From positions 1-22,966 of the IMG/VR virus record IMGVR_UViG_3300025070_000251: a DNA stretch of 22,966 nt. One strand, written 5' to 3'. The DNA comes from a virus. The translations under genes were made by a program, and so were the position numbers. Positions 4,434-12,969 of the stretch are shown here, piece by piece (position 1 is the stretch's first letter; every line of letters starts with the position of its first letter). Under the pieces are notes generated by a model. It ran no database searches. It saw only the letters and a list, made by a program, of their open reading frames with translations, and had not been told where the DNA came from.

Positions 4434-5147
4434 ATGGCATTACCAAAAGTTGCACTACCAACATATGAGTTGGAAGTTCCTTCAAATGGCAAAAAAATCA
4501 AATATCGCCCATTTGTTGTAAAAGAAGAAAAATTACTTTTGTTAGCACTTGAATCTGAGGATGATAAGCAGATTGAAGAAGCTACAAAAAATCTGCTAAA
4601 AGGTTGTATTCAAACGCGAATCAAATTAGATGATTTAGCGATTTTTGACCTGGAGTATATCTTTCTTCAAATTCGCGCTGTATCAGTTGGCGAAGTTGTT
4701 GAAATGTTGCTAACTTGTAGTGATGACGGAGAAACTCAAGTCAAGTACAATCTAGATTTGACGCAGGTTCAAGTTTCTAAACCTGAAGGTCATTCTAACA
4801 AAATCATGCTATCTGATGATATGGGCGTGATTATGAAATATCCAGCATTTGAGGAATTTGTAAAAGTATCAATTATTGGCAAAAGTGGCAACAGTGATGA
4901 TATTATTAATATCGTGGCAAGTTGTATAGATCAAATTTTTGATGGGGAAGATGTATATGACAGTTCTACCACATCAAAGAAAGAATTTGTAGAATTTGTT
5001 GAAGGGTTGACAAATAAGCAATTTGAAGATGTTCAAAAATTCTTTGAAGACGCACCTGTGTTAAAACACGAGATTAGTCTCACAAACCCTAACACTGGAG
5101 TTGAAAATAGTGTTGTAATTCAAGGATTATCTAATTTTTTCGGATAA
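4434..5147 (+). CDS. 26: gp26-like baseplate hub / tail assembly chaperone (zero-frame product)
   Basis: 237 aa ending at TAA 5145-5147. The N-terminus (LPTYELEVPSNGKKIKYRPFVVKEEKLLLLALESEDDKQIEEA) is the hallmark of the T4 gp26-type baseplate hub family found in cyanophages: Y-LE-PS-GK-IKYRPF-VKEEK-LL-ALES-D. The middle (LEYIFLQIRAVSVGEVVEMLLTCSDDG, about 72-100) also fits the family. Near the end, codons AAT TTT TTC GGA TAA contain a T TTT TTC heptamer (5135-5141), and an open -1 frame follows to 5326. The gene is therefore probably the short product of a frameshift pair. It lies directly before the putative tape measure gene, as tail chaperone genes do. A late box lies 24 nt upstream of the start. 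Confidence 0.82.
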   Translation: MALPKVALPTYELEVPSNGKKIKYRPFVVKEEKLLLLALESEDDKQIEEATKNLLKGCIQTRIKLDDLAIFDLEYIFLQIRAVSVGEVVEMLLTCSDDGETQVKYNLDLTQVQVSKPEGHSNKIMLSDDMGVIMKYPAFEEFVKVSIIGKSGNSDDIINIVASCIDQIFDGEDVYDSSTTSKKEFVEFVEGLTNKQFEDVQKFFEDAPVLKHEISLTNPNTGVENSVVIQGLSNFFG

Positions 5148-5326
5148 GCCTCTTTCATAATACGTTAGAGGGGTATTACAAGACTAATTTTGCCTTGATG
5201 CAACACCATAAATATAGCTTGAGTGAAATAGAAGATATGATGCCTTGGGAGAGACAAGTTTACACTAGTCTCCTCATGCAATACCTAGATCAAGTCAAAC
5301 AAGAACAAGAAAAAGCGGCAAGGTAG
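4434..5326 (+). CDS. gp26-like frameshift fusion product (-1 at 5135-5141)
   Basis: A -1 shift on T TTT TTC (5135-5141) joins residues 1-236 of the gp26-like protein to 61 residues read from 5141 to the TAG at 5324-5326, giving about 297 aa. The extension contains YYKTNFALMQHHKYSLSEIE, then DMMPWERQVYTSLLMQYLDQ and a charged end. The Y-----MQHH-YSL-EIE-M-PWER--Y---L pattern is what C-terminal domains of frameshifted tail chaperones (lambda GT-like) look like. The -1 frame is closed by TAA at 5132-5134, immediately before the slippery site, so the overlap of the frames is confined to that site. A stand-alone start (ATG 5198 or 5237) has no ribosome site. In T4 the gene following 26 is 51; whether this extension corresponds to gp51 I cannot tell. 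Confidence 0.75.
5135..5177 (+). promoter_or_regulatory. -1 programmed ribosomal frameshift signal
   Basis: Slippery heptamer T TTT TTC (5135-5141) in the correct phase, 7-nt spacer (5142-5148), then stem CCTCT (5149-5153) / AGAGG (5167-5171). Loop bases AATAC (5159-5163) can pair with GTATT (5173-5177), giving a possible H-type pseudoknot. The single base between the two 3' arms (5172) is short for crossing a 5-bp stem, so the second helix may be only AAT/ATT, or the element may act as a simple hairpin. Confidence 0.65.
5207..5214 (+). promoter_or_regulatory. possible late promoter box CATAAATA inside frameshift extension
   Basis: Exact CATAAATA, like the box at 3600, but it lies within codons for H-H-K-Y of the conserved -1-frame extension and 114 nt before the next start codon, far beyond the usual spacing. 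It could give the 1004-aa gene its own transcript or may be a by-product of the conserved peptide. Confidence 0.35.
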
Positions 5327-5328
5327 TA

Positions 5329-8300
5329 ATGGCACACGGTTATCTATCATATTCACCAGTAACAGGCGAAGGTCCTCTTGGTCCGTGGTTGTATGACAAA
5401 TTAGAAAAACTCATTAAGAATCAAGGCAAGAAGCAAAGTAAGAAACTTCTTAATGGTGTAAAAGATCTTCTAAAGAAAGATAAAGATACTACCTATAGAA
5501 ATAATATTGGTAAGCGTTTTGATGTAACTGGCAAAAGAGGTGGCGAAAATACTGCTAAAGGTGGTGGAATTTTTGGAGCATCTAAAGAACCAAAAGGACT
5601 ACTTGCTGCTGGTAAAGGTGGATTAGTAAAGAGAGAAGTTAGAGAATCTGCACTAGGTAAAAATCCTACTAATAGTGATAAGAAAGAAAAAAATCTTTTA
5701 GGACCAGCTGGATCTACTGGTAGAGCGAGAAAAGGTGGTGGTCCTGTTGATATGGATGGTGCCGTATCAAAGGGATTAAATAAAGATGCTTTTTTCCAAG
5801 CAACAACACAAGGAATCGATTCTTCTACTGGAGAGTATCTAAGTAGAGAAGATAGAATTGCTAAGTTTAAACAGGGAATGCTTGCTGATAGAGCAGCAGC
5901 TACTGGTGCTCCACCAATTACACCAGATAGTGGTGCTGATATTGTCGCTGCAATGGCGAAAAACACGCAAGCAATAATTACTCTTGTAGATACTACAGAA
6001 AAACAAACGCAATCTGGCATTAATATTGCCGAAAAACAGGCACAAGCACAAGATACATTATTCAGTCGTCAAAAAGCAAGAAAAGAAGAAAAGGGACTAG
6101 AAGAGGCTGAAGATCTTTCTGGATTTATGACTCCAGAAAAAATCATGAAAGCCATCAAACCACCTAAGAGTAAAGATGGTGGTGGTGAAAAAGATGGCAA
6201 AGGTGGAGGATTGCCTGGAATGCCATTGGGTGGTGGAAAAGGATTGGGTAAAGCTGCCAGATTTCTTGCTCCTGCTGCAAAATGGACTGCAATAATAGGA
6301 ACAGGTATTTTAGCTGGGATGAGTTTTGGCACTCATTTATGGCATCAAAATAACGATAAGAAAAAAGCAAATGCTCCTAAGAGTGATAGATTAGGTAATT
6401 TATTGGATGATGATGGAAATGTACTTTCAGGACCATCTGCTCCTACTCAAGAAGAACAGTTTGTTGATAATGATACCGGTGAGAGATATGATCCTCCTCT
6501 TCTACCCGTAGAACCCGCAAAAGATCCAAATAACAATCCTGGTTACAATCAAGGTGGTCTAGTATCAGGTGGCAAGGCAAATCTAGTTGATGATGTGCCA
6601 ATCAATGCTGATGAAGGCGAAGTTGTGATGAGCAACCGTGCTGGTAATATGTTTGGCAGAGATTCTTTAATGAGCATGAATGCTCTGGCAGGTTCAACTA
6701 ACACCCCATCTTCTGGTGGTGGATATGCCCAAGGTGGTACTATTGGTGTGTCTTCACAATCGCGAAAAATGTATAAGGCATTTGGACAAGGTATTGTTGA
6801 TGCTCAACTGGATGAAAAGAAAAAACTAGCAGAAATTCAAGGAGAGGGACTTAGAAACTATTTTGAGACTAAAGGTGGTATTGAGAAATTGGGTGAAGGT
6901 TTGAAAGGTTTCTTTGAAGGTCTTGGTGGAGCATTTGCTAGTTTGTTTCGTGGATCTCCAGATACTCCTGGTGGTCCTGGTGATCCCACTAATGTTGGTG
7001 GAGGTGGCACAGGAGAGCAAAATCTTGCTGCATTCCTATCAACCATGGAAGCAACTGGCAATCAAAACCAAGCAGACGCATTCCAAGTAATGCTTAACAG
7101 AACCGCTGATGCAAAAGCAGGTGGTTCTATGAAAGCATATGGAAGCACTTTGGGTGATCAAATTATGGGTAAAGAGCAGTTCTCGCCATTATCCGCTGCA
7201 ATTTACGGTGCTAGTGCAGATAGTGCAGCAGCTAAAAAGTATGGTCATATTACATCGGCATTAGGTGGTAATGTAGAGGAGAGAAAGAAAAAACTACTTG
7301 AGATTGCTTCTCAACCAGATGGATTAGCCGCTTTACAAAAACTATTTGGTGGTGGTTCTGCATCCGATGCATCGAAAGTATTACAAGACTTCAAATCTGG
7401 TGGGTCATTATCTCAAACATCTGCTAAAGATATTGGATCTATGGTATCCTTCAGAGGATATAGTGATGGTTTACCAGCGGATCGTTATAATAGAGGAAAA
7501 GGTGGAAACTTCTTCTTTGATAAAGGATCAAAAGGTAAAGTAGGATCATTATCTGAAGTGTCTCCTGGTCAGAGTCCTGGTGCTGGGATTAGTTCTAAAG
7601 AAGGAACTGGAATGGCAACATTTGGTGAGACAGATGGTGGATCTGGAAGATTACGTAATGCTGTTGGATATGTTCACGGACACTTCCAAAGTAATACTGG
7701 TACTGCACAAGATGTTGTTAACGATACATCAGCGATGGTTCGTGGTATGTTAAATTCTGGTTTAACTGATATTTCTATATCAGATGGAACCACTTTTCTA
7801 CCAAGTATGTCTGATGGTGAGATTAAGGGATTGGTAGAAAGAGGATTAGCACAACATTCACATAGTGGTGATGGAAGATCTGTTGATATCTTTGTTCCAA
7901 AAGGAACTCCTGTTCCTTTCCCACTAACTGATGTAAGAACCACTGGTGGTGGTGAAGGTAGAAATGGTATTCTTCCTGGATCTGGAAATACATGGGTGGG
8001 ACATTTAACTCCTGATTCTCAGTCTGGATCTAAACCTTCTGCTGGTATTGCTGCAGAACCAGATATGTCTCCAGCAAAAATGCTTGCGTCTGCTAAAATG
8101 CCTGCATTAGCGGCATCATCAGCATCACCACAAACTGGAACACAAATGATGGCAACTTCAGCACAAGTAGCATCTGCTAATCGTGGGGGTGGTGGATCGC
8201 CTACAGTTATTAATAATTACTATGGTCCTGGCGGCGGTCAACAAAATGGAACTCCAACTCCAAATAGTGTATCTGCTGGTATTGATATGAATGCTGCAGG

Positions 8301-8343
8301 TCTTGGTGCGTTCCAAGAAGCTAAACTTAGGATTCTAACATAA
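5329..8343 (+). CDS. putative tail tape measure / structural protein with SleB-like hydrolase domain
   Basis: 1004 aa, Gly/Lys-rich. Segments in order: charged N-terminus; a helical stretch (about 205-250) with many Ala, Gln and Lys; a hydrophobic segment at about 309-334 (AAKWTAIIGTGILAGMSFG); the motif NQGGLVSGGKANLVDDVPINADEGEVVMSNRA (about 405-437), a form common in marine phage tape-measure and hub proteins; a domain at about 565-735 resembling SleB-type cell wall hydrolases (FLSTMEATGNQNQADAFQVMLNRT, then QIMGKEQFSP, then NFFF), with E574 as candidate catalytic Glu. A further region (about 780-893, HSHSGDGRSVDIFVPKGTPV then WVGHL) faintly recalls M23 peptidases but lacks the HLH motif. 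The tape-measure role is inferred from position just after the frameshifted chaperone and before gp27; length control is not visible in the sequence. Its TAA overlaps the next ATG. Confidence 0.6.
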   Translation: MAHGYLSYSPVTGEGPLGPWLYDKLEKLIKNQGKKQSKKLLNGVKDLLKKDKDTTYRNNIGKRFDVTGKRGGENTAKGGGIFGASKEPKGLLAAGKGGLVKREVRESALGKNPTNSDKKEKNLLGPAGSTGRARKGGGPVDMDGAVSKGLNKDAFFQATTQGIDSSTGEYLSREDRIAKFKQGMLADRAAATGAPPITPDSGADIVAAMAKNTQAIITLVDTTEKQTQSGINIAEKQAQAQDTLFSRQKARKEEKGLEEAEDLSGFMTPEKIMKAIKPPKSKDGGGEKDGKGGGLPGMPLGGGKGLGKAARFLAPAAKWTAIIGTGILAGMSFGTHLWHQNNDKKKANAPKSDRLGNLLDDDGNVLSGPSAPTQEEQFVDNDTGERYDPPLLPVEPAKDPNNNPGYNQGGLVSGGKANLVDDVPINADEGEVVMSNRAGNMFGRDSLMSMNALAGSTNTPSSGGGYAQGGTIGVSSQSRKMYKAFGQGIVDAQLDEKKKLAEIQGEGLRNYFETKGGIEKLGEGLKGFFEGLGGAFASLFRGSPDTPGGPGDPTNVGGGGTGEQNLAAFLSTMEATGNQNQADAFQVMLNRTADAKAGGSMKAYGSTLGDQIMGKEQFSPLSAAIYGASADSAAAKKYGHITSALGGNVEERKKKLLEIASQPDGLAALQKLFGGGSASDASKVLQDFKSGGSLSQTSAKDIGSMVSFRGYSDGLPADRYNRGKGGNFFFDKGSKGKVGSLSEVSPGQSPGAGISSKEGTGMATFGETDGGSGRLRNAVGYVHGHFQSNTGTAQDVVNDTSAMVRGMLNSGLTDISISDGTTFLPSMSDGEIKGLVERGLAQHSHSGDGRSVDIFVPKGTPVPFPLTDVRTTGGGEGRNGILPGSGNTWVGHLTPDSQSGSKPSAGIAAEPDMSPAKMLASAKMPALAASSASPQTGTQMMATSAQVASANRGGGGSPTVINNYYGPGGGQQNGTPTPNSVSAGIDMNAAGLGAFQEAKLRILT

Positions 8344-9772: not shown

Positions 9773-10000
9773 ATGGAAAATATCGAAACTCATATTGCTA
9801 AGGACAAAGAAATCCTTGACAATCCTATGACTTCTCCTAACCAACGTCGTCATATTGAAGGAGAACTTCATGACTTAGAAGAATATGTAGAACATCACAA
9901 AGAAGAAATTGAAGCAGGAGATCATCACGATCCAACTGCACTTGAACTTTATTGCGATCAAAATCCATCAGAGTTAGAATGTTTGATTTATGAAGATTAA
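9773..10000 (+). CDS. cp12: CP12-like Calvin cycle inhibitor
   Basis: 75 aa, the normal size of CP12. In cyanobacteria CP12 bridges GAPDH and phosphoribulokinase into an inactive complex and shuts down the Calvin cycle; cyanophage copies are thought to push carbon toward the pentose phosphate pathway for nucleotide synthesis. The diagnostic C-terminus is present: LELYCDQNPSELECLIYED with C61 and C70 separated by eight residues, matching the C-terminal redox loop that docks on GAPDH. The middle (IEGELHDLEEYVE, about 28-40) corresponds to the PRK-binding helix. The N-terminal Cys pair is absent, as in some cyanobacterial and phage forms. It is placed between two baseplate hub genes, with a likely late promoter box 21 nt upstream and only 5 nt to the next ATG. 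Confidence 0.87.
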   Translation: MENIETHIAKDKEILDNPMTSPNQRRHIEGELHDLEEYVEHHKEEIEAGDHHDPTALELYCDQNPSELECLIYED

Positions 10001-10005
10001 CTGAT

Positions 10006-12969
10006 ATGGACCAATTAGTATCACAGTTGATTCCTACTCAGCGCATCGGAAACGATGGGTTCAATTGGTGGGTGGGTCAAATTGAAGGAACTGCCACTGA
10101 CGAAAAAAATAACAAAGGTGGTTATCGTTTCAAAGTTCGTATTGTAGGAGATCATCCTGGTAAAAAGGAACTCCTTGATACGGCAGATTTGCCATGGGCA
10201 ACTGTGATGATGCCTGTCACAGTTCCATTCATTCCTGGTAATAGTGGTGGAGCACACCCACAACTAGAGATTGGTTGTTGGGTTATCGGTTTCTATATGG
10301 ATACCGAGAAACAAAAACCTATCATCATGGGGTCTATTGGACAGACTCCTGGTGCAACAAAAGTATTCAGTGAGAGAACACCAGATACTCCACCATTTGT
10401 TACAGCAATCCCACAACTTAATACACAGGCAGTTGGTCCACCAATCCAAAAAGATGAAGGTGGAAACTCTACTGGAAAAAACACAGCGACAGGTGGATTG
10501 CCAGATGGTAGTTGTGATGGGGATGGTAATTCTAGAGTTAATGTTCCACCTAAGAAGGTAGCACCACTAAAAAATAAAACAGCACAGGCAGAAGATTGGT
10601 GTCAGTCTAAAGCAGAAAAATGTGATAACGAAGATATGTCATCACAATTGACTGGTATCATGGGAGAATTCCTTGCTGCAGTTCAAAACAATGGTGGAAA
10701 CATTGGTACATATGTTGTCAACGAAGCGACAGGACAGTTGCAAAATGGTATTGGCATAGCAAGAAGTTATGTCAACAAAGCAATGATGGTTGTTAGCGAA
10801 TTTGTTGCTAGAGTAAAGGGGTTTATCATTGAAAAACTCAAAGCAGCAGTAAATGATTTAATTAAAGCATTACTAAGACCATCTGAAGATGGCAACTCAC
10901 TAACTCCAGTTACAGAATTTTTCAATAACATATTAGCAAACTTAGGATGTTCAATGGCAGATCTTGGTGATCGCCTTGCTAAGTTCCTAACAGACATTTT
11001 AATGAGTTATGTTCAACAGATTTATAAGTCTGTTGCTTGTCAGATTGATGCTCTTGTTAATGGTATCATGTCGAAGATTAATTCGTTGATGAATGATCTT
11101 CTTAGTCAAATTCTTGGACCACTTAGTGATATCTTAGGAGCAATTGCGGGACCACTAAACATTCTTGGTGGTGCAATTAATTTCGTCTTGAATCTTCTTG
11201 GAATTTCATGCTCTGGTCCTGATAGAACATGTAGCAAGTATAAACAAGTATGCACAAATGGTGGTCAAGAACTAGATGAAGAAGACGATTTTCTAGATCG
11301 GTTGTTATCAGATATTGATAATCTATTCCCAGCAACCGGTGCTGATTATACCCAGTATGTTTGTGATGATGCATACAAAGGAAATAGTTTAAAGTTTACT
11401 ACTGTTGGATTTACTGGTGGTGTTCCTAAGGGTGGCACTAGTGATATCGATGGCGGCGGCAGTGGTCCTAATAGAAAACTAGAAGACCAAGATCCTGATA
11501 ATAACGGCGTAAAACAAACCGAAAGAATTACATATGAAATTAAAAATGTAATTGTAGTCGAAGGAAATATTGCTAAATTTGTAGTCACTAGGAAAGGATT
11601 TATTTCGGTATCATCTTCTGTGACGTATAAAACATTAAAATATGCTGGTAGTGCCACAGAAGAAAAAGATTATATTCCAGTAAATGGTATCTTGGGGTTT
11701 GCTCCAGGAGAATCAGAAAAAACAATACAAGTTCAAACTCTGGTTGATTCTGAAAGAGAACAGGACGAAGACTTTAAAATTATTATACGAAAGAATACAC
11801 CAGCAAAGGGAAGTCCAGTACAGACAAGATTTATTAAGAACCTTGCTACAGGAACAATCACTGAAAAGAATGTAATAGAACCATCTGATCCATATACCGG
11901 ATCTCCTACAAATCCAATATATGATCTTCCTGATGTCTTTCCTCCTTCAGTAACTGATCCTACTGATGATGATGGTGATGGGGATACAACTGGACCAGAT
12001 GTAAATGATCCAAACCCTTCGCCAACAGATGATGATGGGGATGGAATTGATGATAATACTGGAGTCGGAATTGTAAAAACTGTTAGTGTTGCAGCAGATA
12101 GAGATACCTGTCCAGAAGGAGAATTTATTGTTTATACAGTAACAACAACAAACTATGTGAATGGAGAAATTTTATATTACACTCTTTCTGGCAATGATAT
12201 AACTTCTGATGATATCATTGGTGGAAATTTAGTTGGAAATGTTGTTGTTAATGACAACAAAAGTAAAATTACGGTAGGTATTGAAGAGGATGGTGTTGTA
12301 GAAGATGCAGAAATTCTTCGATTGACCATTAATGGAACCGGCGCATTTGATGATGTTGTAATCGTTACATCAGATGATTTAATCGATGATGGCGAAGGAG
12401 AAGGACCCGGAACTGATACAGGAACATTTGTTCCACCAACTGTTGTAGTCGAAGATGTTATCACAGATGAAAGCGGAGGAATAATTGATATTCCTGTATC
12501 TAATCCTGGTTCACCATGGGCAGAACCTCCATATGTCTTTATTACAGGAGAAGGTATTGGTGCTACTGCAACTGCTTTATTGGATAGAGATGGTTTCTTG
12601 ACAGAGATTCGTGTCAAATCTAATGGTTTTGGTTATAAGAAAAATCTTGCTGATGATAATGGCAAGAGATGTATTATCGATGCTCTTACTCTCATTAGAC
12701 CTGGAATTGATTATAAAGAACCACCCACTATCTACATTAATGGTAGAGATGATGTAGCAGAAGCAATTATTAATGAAGATGGATTTGTAATTGGTGCTCG
12801 TATTACTGACAGAATAACAACATATAAGGAATATCCTGAGATTATTGTAGTTGGTGGTGGTGGTTATGGTGCTAAACTATTACCGTCTCTAGCATGTCTA
12901 GATACAGATGCACTGTCTAGAATCGGTTCTACTAAGATTGGAACTGGTCGTTACGTTGATTGCCCATAA
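10006..12969 (+). CDS. 5: gp5-like baseplate hub protein with Calx-beta domains
   Basis: 987 aa. Residues about 15-130 form the gp5 N-terminal OB fold (WWVGQIEGTATDEKNNKGGYRFKVRIVGDHP...LPWATVMMPV...LEIGCWVIGFYMDTEKQKPIIMGSIGQTPG), which binds the gp27 hub. No T4-type lysozyme domain follows. Instead there is an amphipathic helical region (about 205-410), a Cys-rich stretch, a Calx-beta domain at about 507-620 (VVEGNIAKFVVTRKG...GSATEEKDYIPVNGILGFAPGESEKTIQV), two acidic DDDGDG calcium-binding-like loops (about 652-682), a second Calx-beta-like domain (about 690-790), and C-terminal Gly-rich beta repeats (PPYVFITGEGIGATATALLD, PPTIYINGRDDVAEAIINEDGFV). The latter modules recur in cyanophage structural proteins. 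The protein therefore looks like a gp5 hub whose enzymatic part was replaced by adhesive, calcium-binding modules. Its stop overlaps the start of the beta-helix gene. Confidence 0.8.
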   Translation: MDQLVSQLIPTQRIGNDGFNWWVGQIEGTATDEKNNKGGYRFKVRIVGDHPGKKELLDTADLPWATVMMPVTVPFIPGNSGGAHPQLEIGCWVIGFYMDTEKQKPIIMGSIGQTPGATKVFSERTPDTPPFVTAIPQLNTQAVGPPIQKDEGGNSTGKNTATGGLPDGSCDGDGNSRVNVPPKKVAPLKNKTAQAEDWCQSKAEKCDNEDMSSQLTGIMGEFLAAVQNNGGNIGTYVVNEATGQLQNGIGIARSYVNKAMMVVSEFVARVKGFIIEKLKAAVNDLIKALLRPSEDGNSLTPVTEFFNNILANLGCSMADLGDRLAKFLTDILMSYVQQIYKSVACQIDALVNGIMSKINSLMNDLLSQILGPLSDILGAIAGPLNILGGAINFVLNLLGISCSGPDRTCSKYKQVCTNGGQELDEEDDFLDRLLSDIDNLFPATGADYTQYVCDDAYKGNSLKFTTVGFTGGVPKGGTSDIDGGGSGPNRKLEDQDPDNNGVKQTERITYEIKNVIVVEGNIAKFVVTRKGFISVSSSVTYKTLKYAGSATEEKDYIPVNGILGFAPGESEKTIQVQTLVDSEREQDEDFKIIIRKNTPAKGSPVQTRFIKNLATGTITEKNVIEPSDPYTGSPTNPIYDLPDVFPPSVTDPTDDDGDGDTTGPDVNDPNPSPTDDDGDGIDDNTGVGIVKTVSVAADRDTCPEGEFIVYTVTTTNYVNGEILYYTLSGNDITSDDIIGGNLVGNVVVNDNKSKITVGIEEDGVVEDAEILRLTINGTGAFDDVVIVTSDDLIDDGEGEGPGTDTGTFVPPTVVVEDVITDESGGIIDIPVSNPGSPWAEPPYVFITGEGIGATATALLDRDGFLTEIRVKSNGFGYKKNLADDNGKRCIIDALTLIRPGIDYKEPPTIYINGRDDVAEAIINEDGFVIGARITDRITTYKEYPEIIVVGGGGYGAKLLPSLACLDTDALSRIGSTKIGTGRYVDCP

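Follow-up and report, generated by a model that had tools for sequence, protein, structure and literature searches.

The tail-assembly chaperone locus of a T4-like Kyanoviridae cyanophage very probably contains a programmed -1 ribosomal frameshift, a reading from sequence to which we assign a probability of roughly 0.93 and by which gene 26 would be extended into a gp26-gp51 fusion. The DNA analysed, here called the window, is a 22,966-nt virus record (IMG/VR IMGVR_UViG_3300025070_000251) representing one environmental virus contig; its nearest named phage is Synechococcus phage ACG-2014e, a member of the Kyanoviridae, with 86.7% identity across the gp26 region. The following features make up the locus and its downstream neighbour.

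4434..5147, + strand: gene 26, putative short tail-assembly chaperone (TAC-N), 237 aa, zero frame (PF12322, E 2.9e-72; phrog_150, E 5.7e-80)
5122..5126, + strand: SD-like element AAGGA, putative 5' stimulator (codon choice; SD-motif count)
5135..5141, + strand: slippery heptamer T TTT TTC, in phase with gp26 and conserved among relatives
5142..5148, + strand: 7-nt spacer holding the gp26 stop TAA (5145-5147), from the window sequence
5149..5171, + strand: 3' stem-loop, CCTCT (5149-5153) with AGAGG (5167-5171) (lineage mean z -4.24; window z -2.0)
5135..5326, + strand: -1 frame extension, gp51 / TAC-C domain, ending in TAG 5324-5326 (phrog_634, E 8.7e-27; pN/pS 0.09)
5329..8343, + strand: 1004-aa gene, candidate tape-measure protein (position after the chaperone locus; phrog_34252)

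In the proposed mechanism, most ribosomes would finish gene 26 and stop at 5145 to give a short chaperone, and a minority would shift by -1 on U UUU UUC and read 61 more codons, producing the gp26-gp51 fusion (long form, TAC-NC). The frequency of slipping is probably set by the upstream SD-like element together with the downstream hairpin. Both forms would then assemble on the tape-measure protein and bring in subunits of the tail tube, like lambda gpG and gpGT. We infer frameshifting itself, its efficiency and the chaperone activity from the genomic evidence set out below.

A slippery heptamer conserved in place and phase

Gene 26 ends in ...AAT TTT TTC GGA TAA, and thus carries a canonical X XXY YYZ heptamer in phase near the zero-frame stop. 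The initial annotation had recognized this heptamer and its phase correctly but put it nine bases before the stop, whereas it starts 10 nt before it. TTTTTTC is not rare by itself, occurring 14 times in the window against 8 expected. Three IMG/VR searches and isolate records gave a first set of 254 loci, counting the window, at which the gp26 stop could be read; about 330 related viral sequences were examined in total, and nearly all keep the signal. Because 250 of the 254 loci have TTTTTTC exactly at -10 from the gp26 stop, the above-chance signal lies in the conserved place and phase of the heptamer and not in its mere presence; of the remaining four, two carry a U-run heptamer that is in phase but at a different distance.

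Conservation extends to codon choice. Dereplication of the first set left 100 representatives, 97 of which are cyanophage-type and were codon-aligned. Among 53 conserved-residue columns the only invariant codons are the two Phe codons of the heptamer (TTT 97/97, TTC 97/97), whereas the commonest codon at other conserved Phe columns accounts for 58-87% of the aligned sequences. The residue encoded before TTT TTC may be S, N, A or D, yet the final base of its codon is always T.

A second set was made up of more distant relatives. T TTT TTC or T TTT TTT is in phase at 81 of its 83 loci, even though the distance from the heptamer start to the gp26 stop ranges from 7 to 31 nt. The heptamer reads T TTT TTG in Rhizobium RL2RES and T TTT TTC in Desulfovibrio phage 7757. 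Five loci place the gp26 stop 16-31 nt past the heptamer start, which suggests that the zero-frame sequence beyond the shift site can vary freely with the heptamer retained. Only Ackermannviridae-type phages lack the canonical heptamer. Three Ackermannviridae loci keep the -1 gp51 extension despite this, with G GTT TTC at the corresponding site in a Serratia phage and G ATT TTC or A ATT TTC in two Salmonella phages; the Serratia sequence may be compared with the G_GU-type shift noted for T7 gene 10 (PMC5009743).

The -1 frame encodes a gp51 domain under purifying selection

The -1 frame of the window is closed upstream, opens at 5135 and runs through FF plus 61 codons to the TAG at 5324-5326, just as had been read from the window at the outset. 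Its product matches the PHROG family of the baseplate hub assembly catalyst, gp51 (phrog_634), as well as columns 231-277 of phrog_150, the gp26 family, implying that some phrog_150 members carry the gp51 domain in one protein. Each of the 97 aligned sequences has an open -1 frame, with both other frames closed, and purifying selection acts on the -1 frame from the shift site onwards. In the window's lineage, the 15 codons that follow the zero-frame stop give a pN/pS of 0.09 when read in this frame; read in the others, the same bases give about 3. A sequencing error or a decaying gene could be suspected at a frame change in a single environmental contig, but the same arrangement, with purifying selection, recurs in isolate genomes and hundreds of independent contigs, which refutes this explanation.

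We also considered whether gp51 is a separate small protein, made by termination-reinitiation or from an internal ATG such as that at +53, as GenBank records annotate it. Several records contain a gp51 CDS of its own, and start codons lie close to the gp26 stop in some lineages: the S-PM2 lineage has an ATG or TTG 2 nt past the stop, and an ATG adjoins the stop in phiN3, Vibrio PVA23 and Vibrio D504. In such lineages gp51 could be produced as a free protein as well. Where a start codon is present, however, its place differs between lineages, and no conserved independent start was found across them. In the window itself, the first ATG, GTG or TTG in the -1 frame comes at about +50, and 41 of the 100 representatives have none before +48. 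Residues ahead of any plausible start are conserved at the pN/pS of 0.09 given above, and the nearby or internal ATGs used as gp51 starts in public records leave these upstream residues unexplained. The heptamer, moreover, is kept codon for codon even in lineages with an ATG, and T4 gp51 includes the gp26 part too. We thus consider a separate gp51 very unlikely. These results agree with the original description of a conserved-looking extension with no start signal of its own, and with its prediction that relatives would keep the -1 frame.

Putative stimulatory elements flank the heptamer

To score the 3' structure, predicted folding downstream of the heptamer was compared with synonymous recodings of the -1 frame. 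Three of four cyanophage lineages have a 3' stem stronger than protein coding would lead one to expect: mean z is -4.24 in the window's lineage, where 91% of sequences reach p 0.05 or below, -2.22 for S-PM2 and -2.62 for a mixed third group, against about -0.7 to 0.3 in control segments of the same three groups. The P-RSM1 lineage has no 3' stem beyond coding expectation by the same recoding (z -0.24), and among non-cyanobacterial relatives the stem is not general, being significant in 20% against 17% in a control segment. A universal 3' stem was consequently rejected, given its absence from the P-RSM1 lineage and from most non-cyanobacterial relatives.

The stem itself differs between groups. 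The window's lineage has an 8-bp stem with 97.9% of cells paired and zero double compensations. In the S-PM2 lineage the stem has 11 bp and one pair is compensated; in the third group it has 10 bp and 11 cells are compensated, a number unmatched in 500 shuffles, for a register chosen after seeing slid controls. A small subgroup, to which the window belongs, has a weaker stem in a register 3 nt away, and the window's own stem is among the weaker ones (z -2.0, p 0.06 by synonymous recoding; z -1.26 by dinucleotide shuffles). A putative stimulatory structure at suitable spacing is thus present for the lineage and borderline for the window alone. The 7-nt spacer and the CCTCT/AGAGG stem first noted in the window are both there, and the stem is real as a feature of the lineage, but it is lineage-specific and not universal. 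The pseudoknot suggested alongside them fared worse: AATAC (5159-5163) could pair with GTATT (5173-5177) in the window, but the pairing is not conserved and was unsupported among the 35 sequences tested.

Upstream of the heptamer, at a distance of 8-9 nt (8 nt in the window), there is an SD-like element, AAGGA in the window and GAGGGA in others. Codon choice at this site is skewed towards it, with GAG in 40 of 61 cases against a 25% background, CAG in 13 of 15 against 34%, and GGR at 65% against 36%. SD motifs occur in 86 of the 100 representatives and in 25 of 35, compared with a 14% background, counts that partly reflect conserved amino acids. All of these tests on the stimulators count related sequences as independent, which inflates their significance.

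A homopolymer run such as the T6 here also raises slippage by RNA polymerase, in which a fraction of mRNAs would be frame-changed and then translated normally, an established alternative route in bacteria (PMC5009743). Bacterial runs of this kind comprise about 9 A or T according to the same review (PMC5009743), however, and the present run comprises six; the conserved phase, the stem and the SD-like element instead fit ribosomal shifting. We regard polymerase slippage as even less probable than a separately translated gp51.

Relationship to T4 gp26 and gp51 and to known folds

Residues 14-244 of T4 gp51 align with the fused gp26-extension profile, ending NYSLNSISKMIPAERG against KYSLSEIEDMMPWERQ, and T4 gp51 falls in phrog_150 over columns 13-280 (E 2.6e-84). 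This end-to-end alignment with gp26 plus the extension, a comparison that had been proposed as a check, indicates that T4 gp51 is the full-length counterpart of the long form, encoded as its own gene. T4 gp26 and gp51 both align with the cyanophage locus and belong to the same protein families, but genes 26 and 51 of T4 are divergent and separate, unlike the single cyanophage locus; T4 gene 26 has no gp51 extension, and its -1 frame only runs into gene 25. In the window, the short form belongs to the gp26 family, and the long form consists of the short form plus the gp51 C-terminal domain, as in T4 gp51. From homology and arrangement, the best reading is that gp26 (short) and gp26-gp51 (long) would be a tail-assembly chaperone pair like lambda G/GT. 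The initial proposal of a frameshift with this chaperone reading is strongly supported by the conservation of the site, selection on the -1 frame and homology to T4 gp51.

A structure model of gp26 (pLDDT 89) matches many viral gp26 models. A PDB fold search with the model returned weak matches only, the sole relevant solved fold being the HK97 chaperone 2ob9 (probability 0.57, E 0.74, not significant), and searching PDB sequences with the gp26 profile yielded no useful match.

A candidate tape-measure gene follows the chaperone locus

A putative tape measure had been placed after the extension from the start, and we retain the 1004-aa gene as a candidate by its position. Its positional equivalents in phiN3 and Vibrio PVA23 have weak matches to tape-measure PHROG families. 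The gene itself has no detectable similarity to T4 gp29, and its residues 475-1003 match phrog_34252, a PHROG named endolysin; this last match suggests that a cell-wall-degrading domain may be built into the gene. Further along, a 75-aa CP12-domain protein (9773-10000, + strand; PF02672, E 1e-10), of a photosynthesis-related regulator family, lies inside the tail/baseplate gene block, followed by a gp5-like hub protein (10006-12969, + strand) with a Calx-beta domain (PF03160, E 5.8e-13).

Discussion

Frameshifting is reportedly conserved in several T4-like groups, with T4 itself said to use genes 26 and 51. Tail-assembly chaperones of T4-like phages were identified by Vladimirov, Gautam & Davidson 2022 (Virology 566:9-15), as cited in PMC10885494 and PMC12846349; the former cites that work for the occurrence, in some T4-like phages, of separate genes for the short and the fused chaperone, and the latter for poly-T shift signals in T4-like short-form chaperone genes. 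The initial annotation had considered the signal absent from standard T4-like annotation, but chaperone frameshifting in T4-like phages was published in 2022, so the core claim is already known and not new in principle. The quantitative conservation figures are additions made here, and the SD-like element and the lineage-specific stems may be further ones.

The arrangement resembles several known systems. The mechanism of lambda gpG/gpGT and its 30:1 ratio have been reviewed (PMC5009743); the lambda slippery site differs from the cyanophage T TTT TTC. E. coli dnaX has the same three-part layout of 5' SD-like element, X XXY YYZ heptamer and 3' stem-loop, but it uses A AAA AAG where the cyanophages have a U-run, and the cyanophage frameshift product is the longer one. 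The Vandenendeviridae / Andersonviridae, with phage Adele, provide a myophage chaperone with a conserved U-run site and an uninterrupted -1 frame, which is likewise annotated as a separate gene in public records (PMC12846349), although they are another phage group with another U-run motif. We think the odds are about even that the shift signal is a three-part dnaX-like cassette in which the U-run heptamer and SD-like element are ancient and common to T4-like phages of cyanobacteria, Vibrio, Aeromonas, Rhizobiales and Desulfovibrio, in which the 3' stem was gained, re-registered or lost by lineage, and for which the T4 group swapped the whole device for a separate full-length gene 51.

Among the annotated record regions examined, none contains a joined gp26-gp51 CDS, gp51 being separate or missing there. 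In the records of ACG-2014e, Aeh1, P-RSM1 and phage 65, the gp51 region is an unannotated gap after gp26, with a tiny ORF in phage 65.

gp51 has long gone by the name of hub-assembly catalyst, and a programmed frameshift at this locus would account for its appearance in cyanophage annotations as a fragment without a start, or its absence from them. It would also correct the annotation of an abundant marine virus group to a joined gp26-gp51 CDS. The ratio of short to long chaperone thereby becomes testable in cyanophages, and the comparison supports T4 gp51 as a full-length long-form chaperone and not an enzyme-like catalyst.
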